This document shows positions 11,174-33,978 of a stretch of DNA of 64,000 nucleotides, in pieces. Both the position numbers and the translations under genes were made by a program. The DNA comes from Deltaproteobacteria bacterium HGW-Deltaproteobacteria-6 (lineage in GTDB: Bacteria; Desulfobacterota; Syntrophia; Syntrophales; Smithellaceae): assembly GCA_002840435.1 (NCBI GenBank), contig PHAT01000002.1, forward strand, positions 452,696 through 516,695, given 5' to 3'. Under the pieces are notes generated by a model, which worked only from the letters and a program-made list of their open reading frames with translations, had not been told where the DNA came from and searched no databases. Positions within the stretch are counted from its first letter, which is position 1. Each line of letters begins with the position of its first letter.

Positions 11174-11249
11174 TCCTCAGTAGCTCAGTCGGTAGAGCGG
11201 GTGGCTGTTAACCACCATGTCCGTGGTTCGAGTCCGCGCTGGGGAGCCA
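11174..11249 (+). tRNA. tRNA-Asn (GUU)
   Basis: A complete cloverleaf of 76 nt with encoded CCA. Acceptor TCCTCAG pairs with CTGGGGA, the D-arm contains AGCTCAGTCGGTAGAGC, the anticodon arm GGTGG-CTGTTAA-CCACC has anticodon GTT, and the T-arm CGTGG-TTCGAGT-CCGCG is intact. The gene is the integration site of the island that follows. From position 11205 (start of the anticodon loop) the sequence is shared exactly with the far end of the island, so the 3' half present here was probably supplied by the element. Confidence 0.97.
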
Positions 11250-11250
11250 A
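11205..11250. repeat. Left attachment site, 46-bp direct repeat
   Basis: From the first base of the anticodon loop through CCA plus one A, this 46-bp segment is identical to 33933-33978. Sequences on both sides of the two copies differ. This is the classic footprint of a tyrosine recombinase that integrates into a tRNA gene and restores it. Confidence 0.95.
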
Positions 11251-11256
11251 TACAAT

Positions 11257-11293
11257 AAAGGGTTTAGGCGATATTCGCTTAGACCCTTTTTGT
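11257..11293 (+). terminator. Terminator of tRNA-Asn, supplied by the island
   Basis: AAAGGGTTTAGGCG-atatt-CGCTTAGACCCTTTTT forms a stem with internal mismatches followed by T5. It lies just past the left att core, so it is on the element side. A different terminator (33987-34017) follows the right att copy and is presumably the chromosomal original. Confidence 0.75.
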
Positions 11294-11295
11294 TT

Positions 11296-11319
11296 ATGCC
11301 GTAATAAATGCCGTAATAA
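11296..11319 (+). repeat. Tandem ATGCCGTAATAA repeats, candidate integrase arm sites (left)
   Basis: Two perfect tandem copies of ATGCCGTAATAA (11296-11307 and 11308-11319), followed by ...AGTGCTGTAAT. The same GCCGTAATAA tandem, also followed by AGTGCTGT, occurs at 33770-33791 just inside the right end. Matching short direct repeats flanking both att cores are what arm-type integrase binding sites look like. Confidence 0.55.
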
Positions 11320-11445
11320 ATATCAGAATAGTGCTGTAATTTCTTGGTAGGAGATGAAGGTGGTTTGGTGAGGCTTTTGGAAGATTTTTATATTTTTTAT
11401 GCATAGGCATGCTCAATTGCCTTTCACAAGGTTTATGTGCTTCGT

Positions 11446-11490
11446 CTCTTAATCAGTAGATTGTCGATTCGACCCCGGCAGGGCTCACCA
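11446..11490 (+). pseudogene. 3' fragment of a tRNA-Lys (CUU), fossil attachment site
   Basis: Exactly 45 nt with the geometry of a tRNA from anticodon loop to CCA: loop CTCTTAA (anticodon CTT), stem strand TCAGT, 5-nt variable loop, T-arm GTCGA-TTCGACC-CCGGC, acceptor strand AGGGCTC, discriminator A, CCA. No matching 5' half precedes it. It has the same boundaries as the 45 tRNA bases in the island's own tRNA-Asn att core, so it is best read as an att core from an element that used a tRNA-Lys gene, not as a decayed complete tRNA. Confidence 0.7.
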
Positions 11491-12023
11491 AAACATCAAT
11501 GGGTCAGGCAGTTAAAGCTTAGCACCTTTTATTATATTTTACCGCTTTTAGGCATAGTTATTTACAAATTATTCCTACCTTAATGTAATAATATTTCAAT
11601 AAACTAACTATTTTATCATTAATAAATACGGTATAATTATACAGTAATAACAAAATGTTATTGCTGTTTATACTGTAACCTGTGTGGCTTTATTTGTGAC
11701 TGTGTTGGTAACAATTCGCGCATGTATCACCACTTCCTGTGGAAAATAGAAAATATTACGTCTTGCACAAATCCGCATGACGTAAAGCAATCAAATGCCC
11801 TAAAAAATGATGTATGAAATAAGTGGAATCTGAAAATATAATATTCCCTGCTCGTTTCAAACCACTAACCGTAATACATGACTGTTTTTGCGATTGTTTC
11901 CAAAGAATGTAAAATATCTTGACTTTTCATTTGGTTAAGTTTTTTAATTACTGCCCTATATATTTGAAAGAAGACATAGTATCTCTATTAGATCCGTATC
12001 AGACCACGTAATGCGGGGCTCGC
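11491..12023. other. Non-coding left end of the island
   Basis: About 530 bp of AT-rich DNA upstream of the WYL regulator gene with no credible coding frame. It contains the inverted repeat at 11641-11667 and presumably the promoter of the WYL gene. Nothing else stands out. Confidence 0.5.
11641..11667. promoter_or_regulatory. Inverted repeat ACAGTAATAACA-N3-TGTTATTGCTGT
   Basis: Two 12-bp arms with one mismatch around a 3-bp centre, in AT-rich DNA about 360 bp before the WYL regulator gene. The size and symmetry fit a dimeric regulator site. Autoregulation by the WYL protein is possible but the distance is long. Confidence 0.4.
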
Positions 12024-12992
12024 ATGTCATCTAAAATAATCTATGAACGATTTCTATGGTTTCACAACGAAATTAAACAAAACAGGCATCCTAATGCACA
12101 AACATTGGCCACCCAATTTGAAATCACAGGAAAGACGGCGCAGCGCAACATTGAATTTATGCGTGACCGACTTAACGCTCCTTTACGTTATGTTCCCCAT
12201 CTTCGCGGTTACGAATATCATGACAATACTTGGGAAATCCCAGGTTTTTGGCTTCATGAAGATGAAATAATTTCACTAGTACTTTCTTACCGATTGGCCT
12301 CAGCTGTTCCGGACAGCAGCGTTAAAACAGCCCTGCGAACATTTCTCAACCAGATCATTGCCAATCACGCTTCCGCCAATTTCAGTATTGATGAACTAAG
12401 CGATAAGATATCCGTCAAGAATATCGCTTATGCCCAGACCAGCGAAAACATCTTTCACGGGTTTTTAGAGGCATTGCTCCGGTCCCGTCCCATGCGGATA
12501 GAATACTACTCACCGCACAATGGTCAAACCACCACCCGTGACATTTTGCCGTTTCACCTGCTCAACTATATGGGCACCTGGCACATCATTGCGTATTGCA
12601 ATGTCAAAAAGGAGCTGCGTGATTTTGTCTTATCGCGAATCAAAACCATTTCGGTATGTGAAACCCCGGTTGACGTCCATGTACCTGCTACCCGTGTGAA
12701 GGAATATATCCGGCAGACCTTCGGCATTTTCCAGGGGAAAGAAACCATGGAAGTCTGCTTGCGGTTTGCAAAGGACATTGCCTCATGGATTGCCGAACAG
12801 AGCTGGCATCCCGCGCAGAAAGCATGGATGGAAAAAGACGGCAGACTATCCCTCACCATCCCCGTGGCTGATTTCCGGGAAATCAAACGGGAAATATTGC
12901 GTTACGGTTCACAGGTCGAAGTCGTCACCCCCGCCGCGCTGCGGAAAGAAGTAAAAAAAGAAATCGAAAAAATGAAAAAGGTTTACTCATAG
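12024..12992 (+). CDS. WYL-domain transcriptional regulator, CRISPR-associated
   Basis: 322 residues. The N-terminal winged helix-turn-helix (residues 1-60: TLATQFEITGKTAQRNIEFMRDRLNAPLRY) is of the DeoR/HTH_11 type. The middle holds a WYL domain (RSRPMRIEYYSPHNGQTTTRDILPFHLLNYMGTWHIIAYCNVKKELRDFVLSRIK), and a WCX-like C-terminal domain follows. WYL regulators commonly sit beside CRISPR-cas operons and other defence genes and sense nucleic-acid or nucleotide ligands. It is codirectional with cas5c, which begins 161 bp later. Control of the cas operon is inferred from position. Confidence 0.88.
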   Translation: MSSKIIYERFLWFHNEIKQNRHPNAQTLATQFEITGKTAQRNIEFMRDRLNAPLRYVPHLRGYEYHDNTWEIPGFWLHEDEIISLVLSYRLASAVPDSSVKTALRTFLNQIIANHASANFSIDELSDKISVKNIAYAQTSENIFHGFLEALLRSRPMRIEYYSPHNGQTTTRDILPFHLLNYMGTWHIIAYCNVKKELRDFVLSRIKTISVCETPVDVHVPATRVKEYIRQTFGIFQGKETMEVCLRFAKDIASWIAEQSWHPAQKAWMEKDGRLSLTIPVADFREIKREILRYGSQVEVVTPAALRKEVKKEIEKMKKVYS

Positions 12993-13153
12993 GACACGCT
13001 ATGGGGGTGGAGAAGGCGTAGAATTAAGGAATAAGGATTATGGTGGATGGTGTGCCGCGTTGGCGGGGAGTGAGTCCTGATAGTTGGGTGAAAAACACAC
13101 AGTAAAAATACCAAATAAAAATGAAATAAATATTACAGAAAGGAGGTGCTTTA

Positions 13154-13825
13154 ATGAACAAATATGAGATAGCGCTCGAAATTGCAGGCGCTACGGCTAT
13201 GTGGACAAGACCAGATACCGGTGATTGTCCGGTAAGTTATCCTACTCCCACATATTCTGCGGTAAAAGGGATATTTGAGTCAATACTATGGGGACCAGCC
13301 TTGCAAGTTACGCCATTACGGGTTGAGATTTGTGCGCCTGTCCAATATCACAACTATCAAACAAATTATGGTGGGCCTCTTCGAAAGCCCGGTGTTATAG
13401 CTACTGGCGGGGGATTCCAGTTACTGGCAACAGTACTCATCGATGTTTGTTATCGATTATACGCAGAGGTATTTCCCACCTTGAAGACGATGAAAGATCG
13501 TGTGCCAAATAAAGCACGACAGTGGGATAGTAAAACCACATCACCGGGGCATGCCTATAAGGACATCTTTTACCGACGTTTGAAGCGCGGCCAATGCTTC
13601 ACCATCCCGTTTTTGGGCTGGAAAGAATTTTGCCCAAGCTATATCGGCGAATTCCGTGAAACCACCAGGGTACAGACAGATATCAACATAGGAATTCCTT
13701 CAATGTTGAGAGAAGTATTTTCTGAAGGTTACGCATCCCAATGTGCCTTTACCTATGATCAAGATGTAAAGATAGTTGCGGGTGTGATGGAATATGCCAG
13801 ACAAGGAGTCCAATATGCTAAATGA
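13154..13825 (+). CDS. cas5c: Cas5c (type I-C), pre-crRNA processing and Cascade subunit
   Basis: 223 residues, with AAAGGAGG before the ATG. Cas5d/Cas5c features are YPTPTYSAVKGIFESILWGPALQVTPLRVEICAPVQY near the N-terminus, IFYRRLKRGQCFTIPFLGWKEFCPSYIGEF in the middle, and a TDINIGIPSMLREVF segment. In type I-C, which has no Cas6, Cas5c cleaves the CRISPR repeat and stays on the 5' handle of the crRNA in the Cascade complex. It is the first gene of the cas operon here, since cas3 is not upstream as in the usual I-C order, and overlaps cas8c by 11 bp. Confidence 0.92.
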   Translation: MNKYEIALEIAGATAMWTRPDTGDCPVSYPTPTYSAVKGIFESILWGPALQVTPLRVEICAPVQYHNYQTNYGGPLRKPGVIATGGGFQLLATVLIDVCYRLYAEVFPTLKTMKDRVPNKARQWDSKTTSPGHAYKDIFYRRLKRGQCFTIPFLGWKEFCPSYIGEFRETTRVQTDINIGIPSMLREVFSEGYASQCAFTYDQDVKIVAGVMEYARQGVQYAK

Positions 13826-15869
13826 GCTTTATCATCTCTCGGTAGCACTTGAAGATGCAGGCATCAAACCTCGTGACTGGCATAAAAACCTCAAGCCTTT
13901 GCCAAATGCTACACGAAAGAAACCATGCTATAAAATTCTGATTGACGTGAATGGCACTATATCTGGGCTTGAAACAATCAATGAAGACCTAGTAACTTGT
14001 CTTCGCAAATGGGAACCAAGCAATGGTAATTCTTTCCCTGGCTTCAATATTCAACCCCTTTACCGCATTACTGATGAAGTTACCAAGAAACGACTCAAGA
14101 AATGGCGGGAAGGCAAAGAATCAATTGATATTGAATTGCTAAAGGTATGGTGCACCGATAAGCAAATAAACTGGGACGCAAAATTTGACAAAAAAATGGG
14201 AAAATGCCTTGGAACGATTCCTGAAGACCTCAACAATATCTGCGCCAACATTCCACCTGAATTTGCAGCGATTAAGAATCTTTGTGGACGTGTCACACGT
14301 CTTGGCGATGGTGGTTCGGCTAGATTCTTTCAGGCGTTGGAATCCTTTATCTGGGACACTTTTGGCAAGGCAACTGTCCCTTCTTTACTTTCAGTGCTTA
14401 TCCATGAAGGCTCTTCAAGGAAGAAGGCTGAGGCGGATCGCGGCGCAGTTTCCGTATTCATGGATGTGCCAGATTGGAAAGAATATCCTATAGCAAGCAA
14501 AGATACAATTGATTGCATTAACAAGTGCCTAATGAATCTAATTAACAATGATGCTGTGGGAACCGAAAAAGGTTCTGAAGATGCATTTGGCGGTGGCATA
14601 AGCGGATTTGAAGAAAAACTTCCTGAGGTAAAGCTTCCTATTATTGGCGGGGTAAAACTGCGCGCCATGAGTAGCGAATTGCCATGCCAGGATCGCTATG
14701 GTACAATCGATGCAAAATCTTTTAATATCGGCAGTAACAGTCGGCGTCTCGCTAAGGGTGCATTGGAATGGCTTAGCGCTAGTGAAAGGGAAGGTTTGAC
14801 ATGGGGACGTGCTGATGGAAAAGAATTAATCTTTGCATACCCGGCAATTTTACCTAAAACACCGCCCAAGCTGGCAGCATGTTTTGGCGCACGCAAAGCG
14901 GATGATTCCGAAGAACGTTTCGCATACTATGCAAAAGATGTTCTGGATTGTCTGAGAGTTCTGGCACCATCACTTAAGGAATTGAAACTTCATGTCTTTT
15001 CACTGCGTAAAATGGATAAGGCGCGAACAAAGATCGTTTTTCACCGTAACTATTCAGCACAAAGACTAGCCGATGCGGCAAGCGAATGGCAAAAAGGATG
15101 TGCCAACATTCCAGTTATACGAATGAAGGCATGGGGGGAGGAAAAGGGTAAGACCATAATGGCAGAAACAGAAACGCCGTTTCCCCTCCAAATTGCAGAT
15201 TGTCTCAATCGGGTATGGAAATTGGACGGCACCAGTAAATGTGAAGTCAAATCTATTCCCAAGTCTGCCGGTATTGAACTCCTGCTTGATGAAGCCATCA
15301 CTCTACGCCATGTGCCTTATCTATTGACCGTAGCATTACAAAACAGCAGCGCACTCTTCGTTTCAATAGGCCAGGCATTGCACCGTAATGAAGTAATTCA
15401 TCTTGATGGATTTAATAAACATAAACAATTGATGCCTGCGATCCTGGGGATATTGCTTATGAAAATTGGCATCAGAAAGGAGAGCTACATGAATAATACA
15501 CCTTATCTTGTTGGACGTATGTTGAAAGTGGCCGATGAACTCCACGCCGTATATTGCAAGGAAGTACGTAAAGACAATCTACCGCCGCAATTGTTAGGGA
15601 ATGCCTTGATGTCGGCCGCGCTCGATAGTCCGACACAAGCACTTTCTCAACTGGCTTTACGTATCGTGCCGTATTTGGGTTGGGCGCGCACTAATTCTAC
15701 GGCCTCTGCTGGCCTATCGCGATATTTTTTAAAAGAGTTTGGCAATATCGAAGCCAAGCTACGTGATATAAATATGCCTCTACGGCTCGATGATGCAGCA
15801 AAAGCACAATTGCTTTTAGGCTATATTGCTGGCAACACACAAACAGAAGAACCGACTAATAAAATATGA
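13815..15869 (+). CDS. cas8c: Cas8c (Csd1)-like large subunit of type I-C Cascade, divergent
   Basis: 684 residues from ATG 13815, which has AAGGAG 7 nt upstream; an ATG at 13794 has none. Position between cas5c and cas7c and general layout fit Cas8c, the PAM-recognising large subunit. The C-terminal region NTPYLVGRMLKVADELHAVYC followed by a helical bundle ending LLLGYIAG matches the end of Csd1, where the usual motif reads yxLGRLFAvLE. The rest is weakly recognisable and the protein is longer than the common 570-630 residues, so it is probably a divergent branch. Confidence 0.82.
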   Translation: MLNELYHLSVALEDAGIKPRDWHKNLKPLPNATRKKPCYKILIDVNGTISGLETINEDLVTCLRKWEPSNGNSFPGFNIQPLYRITDEVTKKRLKKWREGKESIDIELLKVWCTDKQINWDAKFDKKMGKCLGTIPEDLNNICANIPPEFAAIKNLCGRVTRLGDGGSARFFQALESFIWDTFGKATVPSLLSVLIHEGSSRKKAEADRGAVSVFMDVPDWKEYPIASKDTIDCINKCLMNLINNDAVGTEKGSEDAFGGGISGFEEKLPEVKLPIIGGVKLRAMSSELPCQDRYGTIDAKSFNIGSNSRRLAKGALEWLSASEREGLTWGRADGKELIFAYPAILPKTPPKLAACFGARKADDSEERFAYYAKDVLDCLRVLAPSLKELKLHVFSLRKMDKARTKIVFHRNYSAQRLADAASEWQKGCANIPVIRMKAWGEEKGKTIMAETETPFPLQIADCLNRVWKLDGTSKCEVKSIPKSAGIELLLDEAITLRHVPYLLTVALQNSSALFVSIGQALHRNEVIHLDGFNKHKQLMPAILGILLMKIGIRKESYMNNTPYLVGRMLKVADELHAVYCKEVRKDNLPPQLLGNALMSAALDSPTQALSQLALRIVPYLGWARTNSTASAGLSRYFLKEFGNIEAKLRDINMPLRLDDAAKAQLLLGYIAGNTQTEEPTNKI

Positions 15870-15881
15870 AAGGACAATACT

Positions 15882-16754
15882 ATGAGCGATAATATCAAGC
15901 GAGCTACAGGCCTCTTAATCCTTGAAGTTGTTAATTCCAATCCAAATGGTGATCCAGACAGAGAAAGTGATCCCCGCCAGCGCCCTAATGGTCTTGGTGA
16001 AATTTCGCCCGTATCCTTCAAACGAAAGCTCAGGGATTTAGTAGAGGATATAGACGGACCTGTTTTTAAAGCGATCAAAGAAAAGTTGGGTCTAAAAACA
16101 GAGGACTATAAAATTCTTGAATCTCGTGATCGTGTCAGAAGTGCGATCAAGGAAGAAATGAAAAAAGTAAACGACAATTTTCTTGAGAGCGAATTTGTTA
16201 AGAAATACTGGGATGGCCGTCTTTTTGGAAATACTTTTCTCGAAGATGCTATGGACAAAGAGACGATCAAAACCGGTGTGGCTCAGTTTGTTTTGGGGCT
16301 TTCTATTGCACCAGTGCTTATTCAGCGCCACACAAATACTAATAAAGCCGGTGTGGAAGACGGCAAGAAGCAAGGGATGGCACCTTTGGCCTATCGTATT
16401 GTTGAGCATGGTGTTTACTGTATGCCTTTTTACATTAACCCAAGCCACGCTCACAAATCAGGTTGTACGCAAAAGGATGTGGATCTTCTTCAGGCACTAA
16501 TACCTTATGCATACGATCACACCCGTTCCGCAATCCGTCCAGATGTGCGTATTCGACATGCCTGGTATATGGAACACAAAAACTCTCTTGGTAGCTGCGC
16601 AGATTGGCGACTGATTGATGCACTCACGCCAAAACGGACGGGTGATGACCCAATGCAGCCTTCAACGTTATGGAGTGATTATGTTGTTCCAGTCGGGCTT
16701 CCGCCTGAACTGAAAGAAAAGGTCTCTTGCGTGGACTTGATGGAGAACATCTAA
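15882..16754 (+). CDS. cas7c: Cas7c (Csd2), crRNA backbone subunit
   Basis: 290 residues. The Cas7/Csd2 opening is clear: RATGLLILEVVNSNPNGDPDRESDPRQRPNGLGEISPVSFKRKLRDLV. Later features are YWDGRLFGNTF, TGVAQFVLGLSIAPVLIQRHTNTNKAG, and the C-terminal DHTRSAIRPDVRIRHAWYMEHK. Cas7c forms the helical filament along the crRNA spacer in the I-C Cascade. It starts 12 bp after cas8c and its stop codon overlaps the cas3 start codon, so translation is likely coupled. Confidence 0.93.
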   Translation: MSDNIKRATGLLILEVVNSNPNGDPDRESDPRQRPNGLGEISPVSFKRKLRDLVEDIDGPVFKAIKEKLGLKTEDYKILESRDRVRSAIKEEMKKVNDNFLESEFVKKYWDGRLFGNTFLEDAMDKETIKTGVAQFVLGLSIAPVLIQRHTNTNKAGVEDGKKQGMAPLAYRIVEHGVYCMPFYINPSHAHKSGCTQKDVDLLQALIPYAYDHTRSAIRPDVRIRHAWYMEHKNSLGSCADWRLIDALTPKRTGDDPMQPSTLWSDYVVPVGLPPELKEKVSCVDLMENI

Positions 16755-18940
16755 TGCTTTTTGCTCACAGCCCCGACCCAGATCGTGGCATTGCAGCACA
16801 AGAATATGTGACCCATGTCGGCGGTGTAATTAGGCGTGCTTCAGAGGCAGCAGACAAGGCTGGCCTGTATTCAACTTGCGATGGCGACTTATTGAGAAAG
16901 TTGGTGCGTCAGGCAGCGGAATATCACGACCTGGGGAAGTTGGATATGGCAAATCAGGACGTGCTATCAGGAAAAGTAAAGGCAAATAAGTTACCTGTTC
17001 AACACACCGATGCCGGAACTGCCTATCTGTTGGACAGTCTTAAAGTAGCCCCTAGCGCTGCTCTCGTCCGATCACATCATATCGGTTTGCCCGATTTCAT
17101 CAACGAACAGAATCGTTGCGAAGAAAGCATCCTTAGAGACGATTCTGTTCGTGAAAAGGTGAATAGGACACTTCCCGATTTGCTCAAATTACATGAAGGG
17201 GTTCTTCCATCTGCTCAAAAAGTAAATACTGATAGCTGCGAAGTAGCAGGTTCCCCATCACTGTTGTTTCGAATCGCCCTTTCCTGCCTTGCTGATGGTG
17301 ATCATACCGATACCGCCATACATTACGGCGATCAGATTGCTGACGAACGGCCCATTGAACTACGCCCGGCAGAACGACTTCTTGCCCTTGACAAGTATAT
17401 TGCCACATTGAAAGAAGACAGCGAGCGCTCACGACAACGTTCAGAGGTTTACGAAGCATGCCGCAATGCTGTCACCGAAGCAAATATCGTGTCTTGTGAT
17501 AGTCCGGTTGGAACAGGTAAGACAACAGCAGTTATGGCACATCTATTGTCTCAGGCAGAGAAACGACAACTTCGACGAATAATTATTGTCTTGCCCTTTA
17601 CAAATATTATTAGGCAATCTGTTGAAATATACCGTAAAGCCCTCTTGCTCCCCGGTGAGGATAATTCAGAACTTGTTGTGGCTGAATTACATCATCGTGC
17701 AGATTTTCAGGATATACAGAGTAGACAATTTACGGCGCTATGGAAAGCGCCTATAATTGTGACTACGGCAGTAACATTCTTTGAAACACTAGCATCAAAT
17801 ACACCCGCTAGGCTTCGGAGGCTCCATTCTTTGCCGGGAAGTGCCATTTTTATTGATGAATCACACGCAGCACTCCCGGCCAAACTTCTACCCCTAGCAT
17901 GGCAATGGATCAAAGGATTTGCTAAAGAATGGGGGTGCTACTGGGTAATGGCATCGGGATCACTCAATCGTTTTTGGAAGATTAAGGAATTCGACGATGC
18001 AGCTCTCGAAGTTCCCGAAATCATGCCGAACACATTGCGCAATCGCCTGGCAGTGTTTGAAAAACAACGAATTGTCTATCAGTTCCATGACACACCTTTT
18101 GGAACGGTCGATATTGTAGAATGGCTCGCCGCCCTACCCGGGCCAAGAATCGTTATTCTAAACACCGTGCAAAGTGCGGCGGTCGTTGCACGGGCGTATG
18201 AAAAACGCTTTAGTCGTTCTTCTGTCGAACATTTATCTACAGCACTCACGCCTATAGACCGGGATAAGACACTCAGTAGAATCAAATCCCGTTTGGAAAA
18301 CAAGAATGACTATGACTGGTCGCTCATTGCCACATCATGTGTTGAGGCCGGGGTTGACCTGTCTTTTCGGACGGGGGTGCGTGAAGCCGCTTCTTTGGTT
18401 TCTCTGCTTCAGACTGGTGGGCGAGTTAACCGCCATAATTATGTTAACGCCGAAAACGTTTGGACTATCACCCTCAAAGAAGGCGACCTCCTCAAGAAAC
18501 ATCCCGGAATGCGTGACTCATCGAAGGTACTGCTCGACCTGATATCGGAGGGCCTCGACATATCACCAGACCTTTGCACGGATGCCTTAAAGCGTGAAAT
18601 ACGATTTGCAGGAAACTTCTCAGAGAGTTTGCTGATAAAGGATAATCAGCTACGCTTTCCGCAAGTGGAAAAGGATTTTCAAGTTATTGCATCTGATACC
18701 AGGACAGTTGTTGTTGGGGATGAACTTATTGAGAGGCTAGAGAAAAATCTCCCGGTAAATTGGCGCGATATACAAAAGTCATCCGTACAAATATGGGGGT
18801 ACCGTCTCGATGCCTTGCACATCCCCGAAGTTATAAGGCATAATGGAATATATAAGTGGATATTCAACTACGATGACTTTATTGGTTATATGGCAGGTGT
18901 TTTAAGCATAGCGACTGATCCCGAATTTTATATCATTTAA
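16754..18940 (+). CDS. cas3: Cas3 HD nuclease-helicase
   Basis: 728 residues from ATG 16754, which shares its A with the cas7c stop codon. The HD nuclease domain has AAEYHDLGKLD (H58, D59), further His near QHTDAG and RSHHIGLP. The helicase domain has Walker A SPVGTGKT (residues 250-257), the DESH box (368-371), SGS in place of the more usual SAT motif, and motif VI QTGGRVNR (553-560). Cas3 is recruited by Cascade to unwind and degrade target DNA. In most I-C loci cas3 is the first gene; here it follows cas7c. The catalytic residues appear intact. Confidence 0.93.
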   Translation: MLFAHSPDPDRGIAAQEYVTHVGGVIRRASEAADKAGLYSTCDGDLLRKLVRQAAEYHDLGKLDMANQDVLSGKVKANKLPVQHTDAGTAYLLDSLKVAPSAALVRSHHIGLPDFINEQNRCEESILRDDSVREKVNRTLPDLLKLHEGVLPSAQKVNTDSCEVAGSPSLLFRIALSCLADGDHTDTAIHYGDQIADERPIELRPAERLLALDKYIATLKEDSERSRQRSEVYEACRNAVTEANIVSCDSPVGTGKTTAVMAHLLSQAEKRQLRRIIIVLPFTNIIRQSVEIYRKALLLPGEDNSELVVAELHHRADFQDIQSRQFTALWKAPIIVTTAVTFFETLASNTPARLRRLHSLPGSAIFIDESHAALPAKLLPLAWQWIKGFAKEWGCYWVMASGSLNRFWKIKEFDDAALEVPEIMPNTLRNRLAVFEKQRIVYQFHDTPFGTVDIVEWLAALPGPRIVILNTVQSAAVVARAYEKRFSRSSVEHLSTALTPIDRDKTLSRIKSRLENKNDYDWSLIATSCVEAGVDLSFRTGVREAASLVSLLQTGGRVNRHNYVNAENVWTITLKEGDLLKKHPGMRDSSKVLLDLISEGLDISPDLCTDALKREIRFAGNFSESLLIKDNQLRFPQVEKDFQVIASDTRTVVVGDELIERLEKNLPVNWRDIQKSSVQIWGYRLDALHIPEVIRHNGIYKWIFNYDDFIGYMAGVLSIATDPEFYII

Positions 18941-18960
18941 ACGCAATAGGAATTAGATAT

Positions 18961-19584
18961 ATGGATGATGAGTTAATTCCAATATCTGCTCTGACACATT
19001 ACGCTTATTGTCCACGTCGTTGCGCGCTTGTCCACATTGAGCAAATGTGGACTGAAAACCGTTTCACCGCCGAAGGCCGGATCATGCATGAGCACGTGCA
19101 TGAGGAAGGCGATGAATCGCGGGGGAATGTGCGCATTGAACGCGGCGCGTCATTGCGATCTTTGCGCCTGGGGCTGATCGGCAAGGCAGATGTCGTGGAA
19201 TATCACCACCAGTCTGACGGATCATGGCAGGCTTTTCCTGTTGAGTATAAACGGGGAAAGCCCAAACCGGATCATTCCGACAAAATCCAGCTTTGCGCGC
19301 AGGCGCTGTGCCTGGAAGAAATGCTTAATGCCACCATCCCGGCAGGCGCGCTTTTCTATGGCAAAACACGTCGGCGCCTGGATGTTGATTTTGACGAAGC
19401 GCTACGGCAGGAAACAAGCGAGGCTGCCCGGCTTACGCATGAATTGATTGAATCAGGCCAGACGCCAAAACCCGTTTATGGTAAGCGTTGTGAAAGCTGT
19501 TCGCTCATGGGTGAATGCATACCCAAAACGATTCAGAAAAAGCGGTCGGTTGAAAGTTACCTGAAACGCATACTGGAAGAGTAA
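18961..19584 (+). CDS. cas4: Cas4 exonuclease, prespacer processing
   Basis: 207 residues. The four cysteines for the iron-sulfur cluster are visible (YCPRRC at the N-terminus; CESCSLMGEC near the C-terminus). RecB-type nuclease motifs are GLIGKADVVE, FPVEYKRGKPK and the QLCAQALCLEE helix. Cas4 trims prespacers and helps choose those with a correct PAM during adaptation in I-C systems. It starts 20 bp after cas3 and overlaps cas1 by one base. By eye this gene and the next two are more GC-rich than cas5c-cas3. Confidence 0.93.
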   Translation: MDDELIPISALTHYAYCPRRCALVHIEQMWTENRFTAEGRIMHEHVHEEGDESRGNVRIERGASLRSLRLGLIGKADVVEYHHQSDGSWQAFPVEYKRGKPKPDHSDKIQLCAQALCLEEMLNATIPAGALFYGKTRRRLDVDFDEALRQETSEAARLTHELIESGQTPKPVYGKRCESCSLMGECIPKTIQKKRSVESYLKRILEE

Positions 19585-20615
19585 TGAAGAAGCATCTTAA
19601 TACGTTATTTGTGACTACTCAAGGCGCATACCTGGCTAAGGAAGGCGAAACTGTAGTGGTCAAGATAAATCAGGAAGTCAGGCTGCGTGTGCCGGTGCAC
19701 ACCATCGGCGGCATTGTCTGTTTCGGCAATGTGTCTTGCAGCCCCTTTCTGATGGGTTTTTGCGGCGAAAACGGGGTCGGCATCAGCTTTTTGACGGAAT
19801 ATGGCCGCTTTCTAGCACGGGTGCAGGGGCCGGTATCCGGCAATGTGCTTCTGCGCCGTGAACAATATCGTCGTGCCGACGATCAGGTTTATTGCGCGCA
19901 AATGGCTAAAGCATTTGTGATAGGCAAGATTGCCAACTGCCGGACAGTGCTCCAGCGGGTACTTAGAGATCATCCACAAAAGCTGGATGTGGATGCGTTG
20001 CATCGCGGCGTTGATGATATGAGTCGGTCGCTGCAATCACTCGAATTGAATCAGTCCCTCGATTGTGTGCGTGGTTTGGAAGGTGATGCTGCACATACCT
20101 ATTTCAGTGCTTTTAACCATTTGATTGTCACACAGAAAGAATGTTTTTCATTTCAGGAGCGCAATCGTCGTCCGCCGCTGGATAATGTGAATTGCCTGCT
20201 GTCTTTCCTTTATATGCTGCTGATGCATGATTGCCGTTCTGCCCTGGAATCCGTCGGTCTTGATCCGGCAGTCGGCTTCTTGCATCGGGATCGGCCCGGC
20301 AGACCGAGTCTGGCACTGGACTTGATGGAAGAGTTCCGGCCATTTCTCGCAGATCGCCTGGCATTATCGCTCATTAATCTTCGTCAGGTACAGAGCAAAG
20401 GCTTTAACCAAACGGAAGCAGGCGCAGTCATGATGAATGATGAAACAAGAAAAACATTGCTTGTTGCCTATCAGGAGAGAAAGCAGGAAGAAATTCAGCA
20501 TCCATTTCTGGATGAAAAAGTAACGATTGGCTTGCTCTTTCATGTGCAGGCGTTGCTTCTCGCGCGTTGTCTGCGGGGTGATCTGGATGGCTATCCACCA
20601 TTTATCTGGAAATAA
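19584..20615 (+). CDS. cas1: Cas1 integrase
   Basis: 343 residues, full length for I-C Cas1. The metal-binding catalytic triad is present: E166 (GLEGDAA), H234 (GFLHRDRPGRPSLALDL) and E249 (LMEEFRP). Cas1 with Cas2 inserts new spacers next to the leader. The gene starts with ATG overlapping the cas4 stop and precedes cas2 by 11 bp. Nothing suggests inactivation, so the adaptation module is probably functional. Confidence 0.96.
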   Translation: MKKHLNTLFVTTQGAYLAKEGETVVVKINQEVRLRVPVHTIGGIVCFGNVSCSPFLMGFCGENGVGISFLTEYGRFLARVQGPVSGNVLLRREQYRRADDQVYCAQMAKAFVIGKIANCRTVLQRVLRDHPQKLDVDALHRGVDDMSRSLQSLELNQSLDCVRGLEGDAAHTYFSAFNHLIVTQKECFSFQERNRRPPLDNVNCLLSFLYMLLMHDCRSALESVGLDPAVGFLHRDRPGRPSLALDLMEEFRPFLADRLALSLINLRQVQSKGFNQTEAGAVMMNDETRKTLLVAYQERKQEEIQHPFLDEKVTIGLLFHVQALLLARCLRGDLDGYPPFIWK

Positions 20616-20626
20616 GGAGGAGAAAA

Positions 20627-20917
20627 TTGCTCATTTTAGTCAGTTACGACGTTGCCATGCAAGATGAAAAAGGGCCAAGGCGTTTACGACGTGTGGCCAA
20701 GGCTTGTCAGGACTATGGCCAGCGCGTCCAGTATTCTGTTTTTGAATGCATTGTCGATCCTGCACAATGGACGGTTTTGCGTGAACGCCTTATTAAGGAA
20801 ATTAATTCGGAAGAAGACAGCCTGCGATTTTATTTTCTAGGATCCAACTGGCGAAGGCGTGTGGAGCATATCGGAGCTAAAAAATCGATAGATCAGGAGG
20901 GGCCTCTCATTGTGTGA
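20627..20917 (+). CDS. cas2: Cas2
   Basis: 96 residues starting at TTG 20627, with AAGGAGGAG 5 nt upstream. The ferredoxin-like fold pattern is clear: MLILVSYDVAMQDEKGPRRLRRVAKACQDYGQRVQYSVFECIVD, with the conserved Asp after VSYD. Cas2 bridges two Cas1 dimers in the spacer-integration complex. It is the last protein gene of the cas operon, followed by the leader and array. Confidence 0.95.
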   Translation: MLILVSYDVAMQDEKGPRRLRRVAKACQDYGQRVQYSVFECIVDPAQWTVLRERLIKEINSEEDSLRFYFLGSNWRRRVEHIGAKKSIDQEGPLIV

Positions 20918-25168: not shown

Positions 25169-28100
25169 ATGAATCGAACACTATTCAATATCCTGATTGT
25201 AATAATAAGTCTTTTGCTTGCGGCTGGTGGCGCTTTCTGTGTCGACAAAGAAACAAAGCCAATCCTCCGAATCGAAACCGGGCGGCATACCGCAACTATC
25301 ACATCCCTCGATAGTGATGCCAAAGGCCGCTATTTAGTTACCTCGTCAACAGACAAGACCTTGCGACTGTGGGACGCCGACAGCGGGAAGATGATTCAGA
25401 CCATACGGCCTTACGTTGGCGAAAAGCCCAATGAAGGAATAGTTTATTCATCCGCAATATCTCCGGACGGTTCTCTCATTGCATGCAACTATTCAACCGC
25501 ACCTATAACGATAGCGGGAAACTTCAATGATGATAAAACACCCACGCTCTTCGCGCATTTTAAATTGGCCGTATTCGAGAATGGCACATGGAAACGTCGC
25601 TTTGCCCGAGGAGGTTTCGAGCCATTCGTTTTAAAATTTTCAAACGACGGCAAATATTTGGTGGCAGTTAGCAGAGAATATATCATCGTTTATAATGTTA
25701 AAGACTGGAGTATTCAGGCGGCAACGAAGGACAAAATCGAGATTCAATATGCTGATATACTTAACGACCAAATAGGTGTGCTGAGCAAAAGTAATGAGCT
25801 CAAGTTCTTCAAGATCCTTGACAAAAAAATACCCACAAATGCTGCCAATCAATATTTGAATATTATGTTGGCAGAGGAGAATCTTAAAACTATATCTAAA
25901 CAAAAGCTGCCATATAAAGACATGCAGCCTCACAGCCTGAAGCTCTCGCCTGACGGTAAGAACTTTGCCATTGGCTATAAAAACGGTGGACGAGTTATCA
26001 TCGGAAGCGTTATCAATAATAAAGCCTACATAGAGCTTGACACACATTGGGTCAAAGATTTCAATTTCGTTTCTAAGGCAAACTTCGCGAATGTCGCTTG
26101 GTCGAAAGACGGCAAGTATCTTTACGCTGGCGGTCTCGCAAAAAAAGAAACACACTCGGCCTCAGAATCGGATTCGACTATAATCAGGCGTTGGGACATG
26201 ACCAAGAAGAAGCCAACTTATATAGACATCCCGTCTGGAATCAGCAAACCAATAGGTCCGATCGTTCCGATTGAGAACAGGGGGTCTGTTTTTACGACTG
26301 ACTTAGATATTGGTATAATTAACAAGAACGAGACTAGACTTTTGTCGCCATTCCTGTCTCACTCAAATCAGCGTTCTGTTAGTATAGACGGTAGCGGTGG
26401 CACAATCGGGTTTTATTACCAGAGAAGGCCTGACGATATATTGGGAGATGATTACACCTTCAACATAATAAGCAGGAGCCTCTCACCTGAACAACAGGCA
26501 TCCGGCTTGAATGCTGCACCCTTCAGTGCGCTTTACCCTTCGATCTATGTTCCGGGAATGGAATTGGTTAGCGGTCACCGCGGCATTACCCCTTCGCTTA
26601 ACGGAGTCAAGCTTAATATCCAGGGACGGATCATGTCATCCACCTTCTCTGAGTCCTTAGATTCATGCATCGTTGGCACAGACCTCTGGGAGCTGATTCG
26701 CTTTGACAGAAACGCCAACGTGATATGGTCAAAACTCATGCCCGAAATGGCGGTTGGAGTAAATATCTCGAAAGACAGGCGCATTGTCGTTGCCAGTATA
26801 GCCGATGGGACGATCCGCTGGTATAATCATGCTAGTGGTGAAGAACTGCTAGCGCTCTTCCCCTCAAATGACCGCAAACGATGGGTTCTTTGGACACCGA
26901 GCGGATACTACGATGCGTCACCTCAAGGGGATGAACTGATTGGCTGGTATTTCAAGGATGAAAAGGATAAATCTGGGAATTTCTATCCGGCTTCACGCTT
27001 TAAAAGCCTTTATTACCGCCCCGATATTATCAGCAAAGTCCTTGAAACTCTGAGCGAAAGCCAGGCTGTCATTGCGGCAAATAGTGATTCCGGACGCAAA
27101 CCGGAACAGGCTCTGGCCATCGCATCCCTTCTGCCACCGTCCGTTTCGATCCTTTCGCCGACGAGCGGTAGTGGATTTTCATCTGGCAGTGTATCAGTCC
27201 GCTACCAGGTCAGCTCGCCGTCCAACGAATCGGTGACTAACGTGAAGATCATAGTCGATGGTCGTCCGGTCGCTTCCAGCCGTGGTCTAAAAATTATCGG
27301 AAAGGACATCTCCGAACAGACGGTTTCGGTCACCTTGCCAAGCAAGGACAGTGAAATCGGCATAATCGCCGAGAACCGTTATTCATCGTCAGAACCAGCG
27401 ACAATCAAGCTAAAGTGGATTGGCAAGAAGATCGACGCTTTCGTCATTAAACCGAAGATGTACTTGCTGGCTGTTGGTGTCAGTGACTACAGTCAGAGCG
27501 ACCTGAAACTCAAGTACGCGGCAAAAGACGCACAGGACTTTGCCAAGGTGATGAATGGCCAGAAAGGCCGACTGTACCGAGACGTAATCTCTCGCGTGCT
27601 CGTGAATGGGGCGGCTACGAAGGATAGCATTCTTGACGGGCTCGAGTGGGTCCAGAAGGAAACAACAAGCAACGATGTCGCTGTCATATTCATCGCAGGT
27701 CATGGAGTCAACGACAGCAATGGCACTTACTATTTTTTACCGGAGAACGCAGAACCAGATAAGCTGAAACGAACCGGGGTTTCGCTCGCAGATCTGAAAC
27801 AGACTATTTCGTCCTTGGCTGGTAAAGTGTTACTATTCGTTGACACCTGTCACTCCGGGAATATTTTCGGCGGTCGTCGAACCGTCGTCGATATTAACGC
27901 TATAGTGAACGACCTATCCTCGGCCGAGAACGGCGCAGTTGTATTTGCTTCGTCAACAGGAAGGCAATACAGCCTTGAGAAAGACGAATGGGCAAATGGC
28001 GCATTCACGAAGGCACTTATAGAAGGACTCAACGGGGGGGCTGACTATACAAAAAAAGGTAGTATCACGGTCAATATGCTCGACCTGTTCGTTTCAGAAC

Positions 28101-28192
28101 GAGTCAAGGAGCTATCAGCAGGGACGCAGACTCCTGCGACGGCCAAACCAGCCTCCGTTCCGGATTTTCCGTTCGCTATCAGGCCAATGTAG
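25169..28192 (+). CDS. Exported WD40-repeat caspase-like protease (peptidase C14)
   Basis: 1007 residues. Residues 1-25 are a signal peptide or membrane anchor (MNRTLFN, then ILIVIISLLLAAGGAFC). From about 35 to 600 come WD40-like repeats (TATITSLDSDAKGRYLVTSSTDKTLRLWD; SPDGKNFAIGY; ASIADGTIRWYNHASG). A linker with an Ig-like stretch (about 650-740) follows, then a caspase/C14 domain from about 765 (MYLLAVGVSDYSQ). The catalytic dyad is intact: H845 in IAGHGVND and C894 in FVDTCHSGN. Such prokaryotic caspase homologues cleave after basic residues and some act in cell death. Role and substrate here are unknown. It is an unusual cargo beside CRISPR-Cas, and its export argues against a simple cytoplasmic suicide role. 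Confidence 0.87.
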   Translation: MNRTLFNILIVIISLLLAAGGAFCVDKETKPILRIETGRHTATITSLDSDAKGRYLVTSSTDKTLRLWDADSGKMIQTIRPYVGEKPNEGIVYSSAISPDGSLIACNYSTAPITIAGNFNDDKTPTLFAHFKLAVFENGTWKRRFARGGFEPFVLKFSNDGKYLVAVSREYIIVYNVKDWSIQAATKDKIEIQYADILNDQIGVLSKSNELKFFKILDKKIPTNAANQYLNIMLAEENLKTISKQKLPYKDMQPHSLKLSPDGKNFAIGYKNGGRVIIGSVINNKAYIELDTHWVKDFNFVSKANFANVAWSKDGKYLYAGGLAKKETHSASESDSTIIRRWDMTKKKPTYIDIPSGISKPIGPIVPIENRGSVFTTDLDIGIINKNETRLLSPFLSHSNQRSVSIDGSGGTIGFYYQRRPDDILGDDYTFNIISRSLSPEQQASGLNAAPFSALYPSIYVPGMELVSGHRGITPSLNGVKLNIQGRIMSSTFSESLDSCIVGTDLWELIRFDRNANVIWSKLMPEMAVGVNISKDRRIVVASIADGTIRWYNHASGEELLALFPSNDRKRWVLWTPSGYYDASPQGDELIGWYFKDEKDKSGNFYPASRFKSLYYRPDIISKVLETLSESQAVIAANSDSGRKPEQALAIASLLPPSVSILSPTSGSGFSSGSVSVRYQVSSPSNESVTNVKIIVDGRPVASSRGLKIIGKDISEQTVSVTLPSKDSEIGIIAENRYSSSEPATIKLKWIGKKIDAFVIKPKMYLLAVGVSDYSQSDLKLKYAAKDAQDFAKVMNGQKGRLYRDVISRVLVNGAATKDSILDGLEWVQKETTSNDVAVIFIAGHGVNDSNGTYYFLPENAEPDKLKRTGVSLADLKQTISSLAGKVLLFVDTCHSGNIFGGRRTVVDINAIVNDLSSAENGAVVFASSTGRQYSLEKDEWANGAFTKALIEGLNGGADYTKKGSITVNMLDLFVSERVKELSAGTQTPATAKPASVPDFPFAIRPM

Positions 28193-28910: not shown

Positions 28911-29130
28911 GGACATGGACAGGACATTGGGACAATGGACACCCCTACGGGGTGTGTCCATGTCTGTCCCGCTTTGTCGATGATGCTTGTCTGTCCCGAT
29001 TCTTGTCCCTCTGGTGTCCATAATGCGTTCGGCGGTCCCCCCCTCAAATCCGATAATCATTGGTGTCACCTGCATTTAGCGATACGTCATAACTTCATCC
29101 CCAACATGCTTGTTTGTCCCGCACATGTCC
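28911..29130. repeat. Cluster of GGACA / TGTCC repeats, candidate origin of the island
   Basis: Five GGACA copies lie at 28911, 28917, 28922, 28930 and 28937, then a palindrome GGACACCCC-TAC-GGGGTGTGTCC (28937-28959), then TGTCC copies at 28955, 28965, 28992, 29004, 29015, 29115 and 29126. The two halves are in inverted orientation around the palindrome. They lie beside or at the end of the helicase gene. P4-like elements replicate from short repeats bound by their own primase-helicase, so this is a plausible origin. A competing 82-codon frame (28827-29075) through the repeats is not convincing. Confidence 0.5.
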
Positions 29131-30050
29131 ATCTGCTATTTCCATAATGCTAAGGGTGTTGTCGCGGATGTAGGTACCTTCGATACGGATCATCCCAGCT
29201 TTGAGCAAGGCCTCTTCAGCCCGATTAAATTTCTTGTTTTTGGTGCCGGTTAGCACATCAGCCCCTAACGCGCTATAGAACCGTTCGCACCATTCGCTTC
29301 GGGTGAAGTTGCTGTCAGATTCGGATATCCCCATCTGTAAAATAGAAAGGAGATGTCGCGCGTCACCCGACAGGTTTGGTGCCTTCCCGTGTGTCGGATC
29401 ATACTGACATCTGATCGGTACAGCACTGTCTCCTACCTTTTCGAGTTTGAAACCGAATGGTGGAGGTAGCTCTTCTTCTTTCATTTTCGTGAATAAGATT
29501 TCGTTCCGTGCCACCTTAACTTCCCAGTCGAGAGCACCGCGAATAGCGGAAGAACCCCGGCTGACTTCCTTGTTCCCTTTGCCGGAATGGTGGAGCGTTC
29601 CGACAGTGCATTGATATTTATCCCTCAGATAGTCCACGGCGTTAAGGTAGCCACCTATGTCCTTTGCGCTGTTTTCGTCTGCCGCCGCAGAGATATGCTT
29701 CGCTAGAGTATCGATATGCATCAAGGTGATGGGGCCGTATTTGGATATAATGGCCTTTATGTGTGGCTCCAACTTCATTACGGACTGCTCAGTTATCTCA
29801 ACGCGGCGCTGGGTAACAGTGAGCTGCCCTTTGGGGATGTCGTCATACCTGTAATACTGAAGCCAGGCCTTAATGCGCCGGGGTATGCCACCATGTCCCT
29901 CGCCGTTGAAATACAATACGTTCCCCCGCCTGGCCGCGGCACTCATCCAGGATGTCCCGAACGCAACCGCCAGCGCCATGTCGATGGCCACAAAAGATTT
30001 GCCCGCGGTAGAGTCACCAAAGAACAGGCCAGTGGTTGAGGTTTCGATCA
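29095..30050 (-). CDS. RepA-like replicative helicase, lacks its own start (frameshifted from primase)
   Basis: RecA-fold AAA_25/RepA-type helicase. Walker A GDSTAGKS is encoded near 29997-30020, upstream of the first in-frame ATG (29991), so that ATG cannot be the true start. Walker B is ITLMHIDTLAKH, followed by TLHHSGKGNKEVSRGSSAIRGALDW. No ATG, GTG or TTG was found in the reading frame just before the P-loop. Instead the frame joins the end of the primase gene: one extra G in the GGG at the primase stop would read ...LFVGLIETSTTGLFFGDSTAGKS. Most likely one primase-helicase split by a frameshift, real, programmed or a sequencing error. Confidence 0.75.
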
Positions 30051-31064
30051 GCCCACAAACAGGTCCAGGTAGGGGTCGCGGGATTTGCTGTGGGTGGGGT
30101 CTGGGTCGTTGAATTCTTCGAAAATATCCACCGCGGAAACCTTGTCTCTAATTGCCTTCAGTGCCTGGTACTGGTAAGCCCATTGGTAGGCACTGTCTAC
30201 GTTGTCATTTCTGTTTCGCAATGCTTTCTCGGATACCGCAAGGCCCGGCTCTGATAATAAACATGCGATTTCCGAGGCTTCGAGTCCTTCTTTCCTAAGT
30301 CCTTTCGCGGCTTCACGAGCAACTGCCGAAGCATCTCCAGAACATTCGGGGTATCCATGTTCCATTTGCTCTTGCATCTCTGTCCGCAATTTCGACCAAA
30401 CATCCGCAAAACCCGGTCGGGGTGGAATATTTCGAAAATCCCCGGTGACAACACCGGGGGTACTTGTCCCGTTGTGATAGTGTGAATAAATCTCATCCAG
30501 CATATTTTGGATATTGACATTTGGATCGCCCAACCCCGCGGTTCCATCAAGCCAGCGGTTGTCGTCTTCGGGCATGACACCCGTCAGCGTGATAAAGGTG
30601 CCCGGAAGATCAATCGGTTGATCTTTACCGGCGGTTGCTTTATTCCGACCCAGTCCGATAATGTGCAGGCCCCGACCGGAAGGGGAACGTTGGATGTAAC
30701 ACCCTCTCCTGCGCGCTTCGGCAAGGATCTCCAACGCGAATGGGTCGCTCGGATCATCAATGTCGATAGCTCCGTATGGTGTCCCTGTTGCAGAATGCAG
30801 AGCTAGGCCGATCCCATTAGCACTGCCGTCACGAACAATGGCGATAGCCTCATTGAAAGTCATCAGTTTGTTAGGTTTGGCGACGCTGACCGGGATGATT
30901 TGTCCGTGATCGTCACGGCGACCTGGCTTTTTAGATATTTTGTTTGTTTGGGGCTTGCTCTCTGCGCACCACGTTATGATAAAACGCTGATCGTCGCGCC
31001 TGAATTCATCGGGGATGCCTTCCGTGTTGAAAAGGAGAGGGGTTTTTGCGTTAGTCGTTTCCAT
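30048..31064 (-). CDS. Prim-Pol-type primase domain protein of the island
   Basis: 338 residues. The N-terminal half resembles a bifunctional primase/polymerase fold: GIGLALHSATGTPYGAIDIDDP, with the Asp-x-Asp metal site, and CYIQRSPSGRGLHIIGLG, the usual xSPSGxGLHI motif. PGTFITLTGVMPEDDNRWLDGT follows. The C-terminal part is helical and charged, and ends KSRDPYLDLFVG at TGA 30048-30050, where a RepA-like helicase continues in the next frame. It would prime and help start replication of the excised island. Confidence 0.8.
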   Translation of the reverse strand: METTNAKTPLLFNTEGIPDEFRRDDQRFIITWCAESKPQTNKISKKPGRRDDHGQIIPVSVAKPNKLMTFNEAIAIVRDGSANGIGLALHSATGTPYGAIDIDDPSDPFALEILAEARRRGCYIQRSPSGRGLHIIGLGRNKATAGKDQPIDLPGTFITLTGVMPEDDNRWLDGTAGLGDPNVNIQNMLDEIYSHYHNGTSTPGVVTGDFRNIPPRPGFADVWSKLRTEMQEQMEHGYPECSGDASAVAREAAKGLRKEGLEASEIACLLSEPGLAVSEKALRNRNDNVDSAYQWAYQYQALKAIRDKVSAVDIFEEFNDPDPTHSKSRDPYLDLFVG

Positions 31065-32410: not shown

Positions 32411-33733
32411 TTATTTGTCATGTCTGATACTACTTCTTCCTGCCGAAATAGGAATGACGTTGGCTTTGGTGCCGGTGACGATGCTGGTCAGCTTGCGTTC
32501 CCATGTTTCGAGTGCGGACTTTTTTTCCTTATCATACCGATATTGATTGTAAACCTTTATGACCCCCTGTTTGTTATGGTTCAACACCGCATCAATCACC
32601 TCATCCATTTCACCGGCTTTTGCCATAAACGTCGCAGCAGTGCGCCGGAGATCGTGGGGTGTGAAGTGATCCATCCCGAAGCAGTTCTTTGTAGCCGGGT
32701 TACCTTCTTTATCAAACAGCGTCCTGCCGTCCTTGTCTGTTATTGGAGAGCGCAGGTTACGTCGTACCGTCACTGATAAAGCATTACAAGCTATGGGGTT
32801 GGTGATCTCTTCGCCGGGGTGCTTCTTTGATTGCCTGACCGGGGACGGAAATATGTAACCATTGCTTTCAGGGCTACTAATTAGATCAAGTGCTGTGTCG
32901 GTCAAATATACTCGGTGAGCTTTTCCGTTTTTTGCCCTGTCACTTGGAATTGTCCACCAACGGCCATCAATCTCTCTGGAATGCATGGCTGTCACTTCTC
33001 CGGGGCGTTGTGCAGTTACAAGAATCAGTTTAAGAGCACGGCGGGACTCTGCCGACATGCCCAGGTCGCTAAGATCAAGGGCCTGCCAAAAAGTTTTGAT
33101 TTCTTCTTCTGATAGTACCCGTTCGCGTGCCAGTTTCGGCGAAGGTAGCTTTACTCCGGAGCATGGTGTGTGTTGAAGAATATCTTTCTCAATCGCCCAA
33201 TTGAACATTTTACGAATAATCTGAAAGCAGTTGTTTGCCATCGCAGGAGCGTTGCGATTGACAATTCCTTCAAGTAGCAGCACCACGTCGCGCTTGGCGA
33301 TGTCAGCGGCTTTGCGTTTACCCCATACCGGCACCACATCACGGTTCAAAATACTCTCATCTTTTGCCCATGAACGTTTGAATCTTTTAGCGTGGCGTTC
33401 TATGTAATCCGTGCAGAGATCGGAAACAGTGGGTGCCTTGCGACGTTTTTCTGCCGCTTCTTCTTTTTCTCTCAGTGGGTCAATACCGTTCTTTACTTTG
33501 CGTCTGGCGTCTTCGAATTTGTGCCTGGCCGTCTCAAGGGTGACATCAGGATAATTTCCGAGATTCATCTCCCGGCGCTTGCCATCGATGCCATATATAT
33601 AAAGCCATGTTTTTGAGCCGGATGGCAGGATTCGGATGGTGAAGCCGTTCCCTTCTGAACGGATATATTTTTGACTTTCGGCGCGAAGTTTCTTCACCAT
33701 AGAGTCGGTAAATGTGATCTGCTTTTTGCTCAT
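32411..33733 (-). CDS. int: P4-type tyrosine integrase
   Basis: 440 residues from ATG 33733 (GGGGGTG 7 nt upstream); a GTG 9 nt further upstream is less likely. The N-terminal arm-binding/DUF4102 domain reads GNGFTIRILPSGSKTWLYIYGIDGKRREMNLGNYPDVTLETAR, followed by a SAM-like core-binding domain and the catalytic domain. The tyrosine-recombinase residues are R243 (AQRPGEV), H360-x-x-R363 (HDLRRTA), H386 (LNHN) and Y395 (VIKVYNQY). This is the enzyme expected to integrate the island into tRNA-Asn and to excise it. It lies 200 bp inside the right att copy and is transcribed inward. Confidence 0.95.
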   Translation of the reverse strand: MSKKQITFTDSMVKKLRAESQKYIRSEGNGFTIRILPSGSKTWLYIYGIDGKRREMNLGNYPDVTLETARHKFEDARRKVKNGIDPLREKEEAAEKRRKAPTVSDLCTDYIERHAKRFKRSWAKDESILNRDVVPVWGKRKAADIAKRDVVLLLEGIVNRNAPAMANNCFQIIRKMFNWAIEKDILQHTPCSGVKLPSPKLARERVLSEEEIKTFWQALDLSDLGMSAESRRALKLILVTAQRPGEVTAMHSREIDGRWWTIPSDRAKNGKAHRVYLTDTALDLISSPESNGYIFPSPVRQSKKHPGEEITNPIACNALSVTVRRNLRSPITDKDGRTLFDKEGNPATKNCFGMDHFTPHDLRRTAATFMAKAGEMDEVIDAVLNHNKQGVIKVYNQYRYDKEKKSALETWERKLTSIVTGTKANVIPISAGRSSIRHDK

Positions 33734-33769
33734 TGTAATCACCCCCTAGGCTAGTACATTGTAGCGTTG

Positions 33770-33791
33770 TGCCGTAATAATGCCGTAATAA
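33770..33791 (+). repeat. Tandem TGCCGTAATAA repeats, candidate integrase arm sites (right)
   Basis: Two perfect tandem copies of TGCCGTAATAA (33770-33780 and 33781-33791), followed by AGTGCTGTGCT. This mirrors the left-end tandem in sequence and order. It lies between the integrase start and the right att core, where arm-type sites and the int promoter usually are. Confidence 0.55.
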
Positions 33792-33932: not shown

Positions 33933-33978
33933 CTGTTAACCACCATGTCCGTGGTTCGAGTCCGCGCTGGGGAGCCAA
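33933..33978. repeat. Right attachment site, partial tRNA-Asn duplicate
   Basis: 46 bp identical to 11205-11250, covering the tRNA-Asn from the anticodon loop to CCA plus A. The preceding sequence (CAGAATAGGTTA) is unrelated to the tRNA 5' half, so this is not a tRNA gene but the displaced chromosomal 3' end. Confidence 0.95.

Follow-up and report, generated by a model that had tools for sequence, protein, structure and literature searches.

Probable relic of an older tRNA-Lys attachment site inside the left end of a tRNA-Asn island

Introduction

Why should an island that resides in a tRNA-Asn gene hold, just inside its left end, a piece of a different tRNA gene cut to the exact dimensions of an attachment core? 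The question is raised by a stretch of 64,000 nucleotides (hereafter the window) from contig PHAT01000002.1 (positions 452,696 to 516,695) of Deltaproteobacteria bacterium HGW-Deltaproteobacteria-6, a member of the Smithellaceae whose assembly comprises 4.09 Mb in 53 contigs. A sequence-only reading of the window had proposed that a 45-nt segment with a CTT anticodon was a fossil core from tRNA-Lys, and that either the island had absorbed an element targeting that gene or its integrase had switched targets. A-site tRNA islands and their frequent target switching are established (Islander, PMC4383910), tRNA fragments left by integration are widespread (PMC9897764), composite islands are known, for example CGI48/GI21 in Shewanella (PMC8978831), and the exchange of integration modules and target switching in tyrosine integrases have been reviewed for the archaea (PMC8371274). 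The relatives used for comparison below are mostly draft assemblies.

Results

The resident tRNA-Asn island

The island has a flanking tRNA gene with its displaced 3' fragment, an adjacent tyrosine integrase and matching arm-type motifs at its two ends, as A-site tRNA islands do. Its parts are as follows.

11174..11249, + strand: intact tRNA-Asn(GTT), the target of the island, called by ARAGORN and Rfam and in direct repeat with the right end
about 11258..11292, + strand: resident left-end terminator, a strong hairpin with a T run
11297..11319, + strand: likely resident P' arm, two copies of TGCCGTAATAA (11297-11307 and 11309-11319), doubled at the right end too
11320..11445, no strand: junction sequence from the resident P' arm to the fossil Lys core, one AT-rich 28-mer aside without a match in the fetched loci
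29095..31064, - strand: primase-like and AAA/helicase-like genes beside the integrase, a satellite-like module (PHROGs and Pfam)
32411..33742, - strand: resident tyrosine integrase with Arm-DNA-bind_3, Phage_int_M and Phage_integrase domains (Pfam PF00589, PF13356, PF22022; PHROG 1)
33770..33791, + strand: likely resident P arm, two copies of TGCCGTAATAA, doubled at the left end too
33933..33977, + strand: displaced tRNA-Asn 3' half at the island's right end

The resident attachment core is the 3' 45 nt of tRNA-Asn (11205-11249), its distal copy is identical at 45/45 positions, and the integrase gene adjoins that displaced copy. The doubled 11-mer at both ends probably represents the arm-type sites of this integrase, and the terminator at the left end is strong (minimum free energy, MFE, of -21.5 kcal/mol for 11250-11292). 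These assignments account for about 70 of the 195 bp between the two cores, all of which had earlier been suggested to be a relic; that portion is the terminator and double arm site of an ordinary attL, and the remainder is the junction sequence 11320-11445. The latter matched none of the fetched loci except through one AT-rich 28-mer, and comparison with the right ends of Lys islands gave nothing convincing.

The cargo of the island includes a WYL regulator with type I-C cas genes (12024-20917) and a CRISPR array of 34 copies (repeats from 21103). A protein of 1007 aa that combines WD40 repeats with a caspase-like domain at its C terminus (25169-28192) is a possible defence or signalling protein, and the primase-like and helicase-like genes resemble the replication module of a P4-like satellite. 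In the sister genome (G012) the WYL-cas I-C genes are located elsewhere; its WYL gene is 89% identical and lies at a locus whose flank corresponds to host contig C9 near 104.4 kb, and no WYL gene was found in the fetched stretch of that host contig. A link between this cargo and tRNA-Lys was rejected, since the relatives' fetched neighbourhoods contained neither a tRNA nor a Lys core. Because the sister genome's assembly breaks off within tRNA-Asn, it offers no pair of sequences from before and after the arrival of the island, and a search for the left and right flanks of an empty tRNA-Asn site did not find both on one relative's contig.

A decayed tRNA-Lys core

The segment in question and the features that follow it all lie on the same strand.

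11446..11490, + strand: fossil tRNA-Lys(CTT) attachment core, anticodon loop to CCA
11500..11531, + strand: predicted decayed terminator of a former Lys element
11535..11585, + strand: P' sequence in common with the element end after tRNA-Gln(CTG) of genome G003
11536..11546, + strand: putative fossil arm-type site ATTTTACCGCT, 11 bp, in one recognisable copy

The segment, CTCTTAATCAGTAGATTGTCGATTCGACCCCGGCAGGGCTCACCA, shares 42/45 positions with the last 45 nt of tRNA-Lys(CTT) in the same genome (C1:648042-648117), a match with an E value of about 3e-13 in a search of the whole genome; the second-best placement of the tRNA-Lys 3' half in the window, the Asn cores aside, reaches 24/45. The boundaries and anticodon given in the sequence-only reading were thus exact. 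The segment runs from the first base of the anticodon loop to CCA, the same span as the Asn core, and, as had also been claimed, no 5' half precedes it: the 31 bases before 11446 match the tRNA-Lys 5' half at 8/31 positions, and the best placement anywhere in 11201-11446 is 13/31. Neither ARAGORN nor Rfam calls a tRNA at 11446-11490. A full tRNA-Lys with intervening sequence was rejected on the failure to find the 5' half, and ancestral chromosomal sequence downstream of tRNA-Asn was rejected because the sequence rightward of the distal core holds no Lys fragment. No second Lys core occurs in the window, including the vicinity of the right end.

The three substitutions relative to tRNA-Lys are all transitions. 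The universal G53-C61 pair is lost through one of them (now A53.C61) and another weakens the T-stem pair U50-A64 to U.G, and because of these two changes the segment is decayed rather than maintained or selected as a tRNA. Comparison with the host's tRNA-Lys 3' half, which the earlier reading had recommended, also bore out the affiliation, in that the segment has the GACCCC variant shared by the host and by several members of its genus (G004, G007, G008 and G015) in place of GATCCC. This fits capture from the present host or from a close relation.

A decayed terminator and a putative arm site beyond the core

A decayed terminator directly follows the CCA of the segment. Over 85 nt from 11446 the window is 87% identical to the tRNA-Lys core and terminator of G004, and the predicted hairpin is weaker, with an MFE of -6.2 kcal/mol as compared with -20.6 kcal/mol in that genome. 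Beyond the terminator lies a single recognisable copy of ATTTTACCGCT, a motif that is doubled in relatives, and the 11535-11585 sequence is 81% identical over 52 nt (E 8.7e-6, in one genome) to the DNA just past tRNA-Gln(CTG) in G003, where the motif itself is doubled. The sister genome has one copy past its tRNA-Gln(CTG), together with the start of the 11535-11585 sequence; the host's own tRNA-Gln(CTG) site has no copy, and no second copy occurs near the right end of the island. The position and repetition of the motif suggest that it served as an arm site.

Doubled TTTACCGC was sought across 155 genomes of the order. The double TTTACCGCTATTTTACCGC and close variants stand at eight tRNA left ends (Gln CTG twice, Leu CAA twice, Thr CGT twice, Arg CCT and Arg ACG), in 8/8 cases on the tRNA strand, with the first copy 79-95 nt from the T loop and about 60 nt past CCA; the fossil copy is 70 nt from the T loop. 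At a right end in G044:C18 the double motif is flanked on one side by the integrase P0001 and on the other by a displaced Leu(CAA) core. The motif thus marks, by its sequence and placement, the ends of elements in other tRNA genes. Arms of the TTTACCGC type accompany Gln, Leu, Arg and Thr targets in relatives and Lys only at the fossil segment. Across the order the doubled form was observed with at least five tRNA targets (L235, L237, L238, L241, L243, L244, L246-L248), and from this breadth it appears that arm type is exchanged independently of tRNA target.

tRNA-Lys(CTT) as a site of integration

The tRNA-Lys(CTT) gene is a frequent site of islands, in roughly 200 relatives, and constitutes a hotspot in the order. 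Examples in which an island separates tRNA-Lys from a distal 45-nt core come from G006, G017, G024, G033, G034, G048 and G096. The earlier reading had suggested that islands in tRNA-Lys be searched for similar left ends, and islands there with the same 45-nt core proved common. About 50 distinct Lys cores in relatives are followed by a terminator, and the left ends of the examples named hold a constant order of core, terminator of about 40 nt and, in most, a doubled motif of 10-12 bp, which is doubled again at the right ends upstream of the distal core. An exact double 8-mer occurs 41-125 nt past CCA at 18 of the 50 distinct Lys cores as compared with 1.55% of random windows. Among the relatives, no intact counterpart of this island, of its fossil end or of the Lys element with these arms was found.

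The host's own tRNA-Lys(CTT) (G000:C1:646576-648117; L002, L005) is followed by a 1.46-kb insert, in which no integrase was found, and then by a perfect distal core; a further decayed core-like piece lies in between, and TTATCTGTTTA is doubled past the terminator. A second decayed tRNA-Lys core (38/45) is present at 1669-1713 of L065 (G022:C59), about 1.5 kb from an intact distal core, and is a fossil of the same identity in another genus of the family.

The resident integrase and its relatives

The affinities of the resident integrase suggest Desulfobacterota. Support in the integrase tree is weak around this protein, and the branch of one Lys row is very long; for these reasons pairwise identities alone were used. 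The resident integrase is 23% identical to P0001 over 337 residues and 22-23% identical to the Lys integrases of relatives. Those relatives at 45-64% identity whose targets were mapped use Arg, Ser and probably Pro tRNAs, none of them Lys, and relatives carry TGCCGTAGTxx twice at the same place as the resident arms; where a Lys(CTT)-like core is nearby, the closest relatives (L017/L018) come from other phyla and are about 35% identical. Members of the P0001 family adjoin Lys(CTT) cores (L268, L270), Asn cores (L264, L278) and Gln, Thr and other cores; a search of the present genome at E<=1e-50 returned no member of this family. In both sequence and orientation, the motif next to the Lys core differs from the resident integrase's arm sites. 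Because the arms differ (ATTTTACCGCT as against TGCCGTAATAA), the integrases share about 23% identity and the mapped relatives have targets other than Lys, the segment is best read as the left end of an older Lys element with an integrase of another family.

Discussion

Core, terminator and putative arm-type site follow one another in the expected order on one strand, all decayed; the resident island has different arm sites and an unrelated integrase. We consider it probable that the segment is the relic left (P') half of the attP of an older tRNA-Lys(CTT) element, belonging to the integrase family of G044:C18 (P0001), and that replacement or fusion of integration modules left it behind. The claim of the sequence-only reading that the island absorbed an element targeting tRNA-Lys gains support from the Lys match within the genus, the abundance of Lys islands, and the terminator and arm-type site beyond the core. 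An element of the P0001 family would have resided in tRNA-Lys(CTT), its terminator supplied to the rebuilt tRNA gene and ATTTTACCGCT serving its own integrase as an arm-type site. In a circular ancestor a new module, consisting of an integrase, P arm, tRNA-Asn core and P' arm, may then have replaced, or been fused beside, the old integrase and P arm, so placed that it directly preceded the old core; the old core and P' arm would then have remained behind, immediately interior to the new left end. The element would next have integrated in tRNA-Asn, after which the relic drifted. The order expected from these steps is the one observed: tRNA-Asn, new P' arm, old Lys core, old terminator, old P' arm, cargo, new integrase, new P arm and Asn core. 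The replacement or fusion by a new integration module is itself a step deduced from this arrangement, which suggests that the present landing machinery of the island is that of a second, unrelated element; the relic probably has no present function. Weighing against this account are the single recognisable arm copy where two are expected, its shorter spacing from the T loop, the failure to find an intact relative, and the pairing of TTTACCGC arms with targets other than Lys everywhere else. Somewhat more tentatively, the left end may be viewed as a stratified attP, in which a complete foreign module of integrase, core and arms was captured and the target moved from tRNA-Lys to tRNA-Asn in one step.

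A composite island, in which a whole Lys-type element was fused with or inserted into the Asn island and later lost its integrase and right end, would yield nearly the same end product. Such islands are documented (PMC8978831), the route could pass through a cointegrate or through capture of an attP from a tandem array, and tandem Lys cores and decayed internal cores exist in relatives (G096, L065) and at the host's own tRNA-Lys. It requires, however, that the Asn element offered a Lys target or underwent a fusion, and that a deletion then ended within 130 bp of the Lys core, and the island genes examined contained nothing else recognisable as part of a second element; we judge this course of events unlikely. 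That the resident integrase or its direct ancestor switched from tRNA-Lys to tRNA-Asn, the Lys core being its old attP core, was the other route offered earlier and gained no support from comparison. Integrase families do change targets (Islander, PMC4383910), and several tRNAs are used by relatives of this one, but a switch leaves unexplained why the foreign arm ATTTTACCGCT and not TGCCGTAATAA stands beside the Lys core, the Asn core has a complete arm set of its own, and relatives with TGCCGTA-type arms map to Arg, Ser and probably Pro; the closest relatives near a Lys(CTT)-like core are about 35% identical. A switch by the resident integrase is accordingly very improbable.

The proximity of two equally long cores at the left end might also suggest a working second attachment site that lets the island integrate in either tRNA-Asn or tRNA-Lys. 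Integration at the Lys core would however rebuild a damaged tRNA-Lys (A53.C61), its terminator is broken and one arm copy is missing, the genome yielded no P0001-family integrase at E<=1e-50, and the decay of the sequence argues against recombination there, all of which leaves dual targeting the least credible of the alternatives. Hardly more plausible is a stray tRNA-Lys fragment from an unrelated duplication or off-target event, with the motif beyond it a coincidence. Fragments of tRNA genes are common in prokaryotic genomes (PMC9897764), but the boundaries here are those of an anticodon-loop attachment core, and behind them come a terminator and an arm motif in the proper sequence. An 18-mer match with one mismatch is found in 5 of 247 genomes (3 for a reversed control), so that chance is a very unlikely explanation for one within 60 nt of the core. 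In G033 and G040, matches to TTTTACCGCTTTTAGGCA had no tRNA nearby and were dismissed as chance.

The probable relic attP half can be set beside several known systems. As in the class A islands of Islander (PMC4383910), the resident island has a core from anticodon loop to CCA, a displaced fragment and a tyrosine integrase at the far end; unlike them, it has at one end two cores that derive from different tRNAs, of which one is a fossil with neither integrase nor partner. The CGI48/GI21 composites (PMC8978831) likewise hold attachment material of one element inside another with a different target gene, whereas here an attP half alone survives and the integrase and second end of the absorbed element are gone. 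In module exchange (PMC8371274) the landing site is also changed by exchanging or evolving the integration module; the difference is that here the old half-site lies physically beside the new one, making the order of events readable. In a limited search of the open-access literature, no earlier description emerged of cores from different tRNAs stacked together with arm sites that do not match.

Changes of landing gene in islands are usually inferred from trees. An old half-site preserved beside a new one separates evolution of the integrase from replacement of the whole module, and in this island it points to replacement. If this interpretation is correct, stacked cores of different tRNA identity could be sought systematically as fossils of target switching by module capture, and other genomes can easily be scanned for the three-part signature of core, terminator and double arm repeat, by which the frequencies of the different routes would become measurable.
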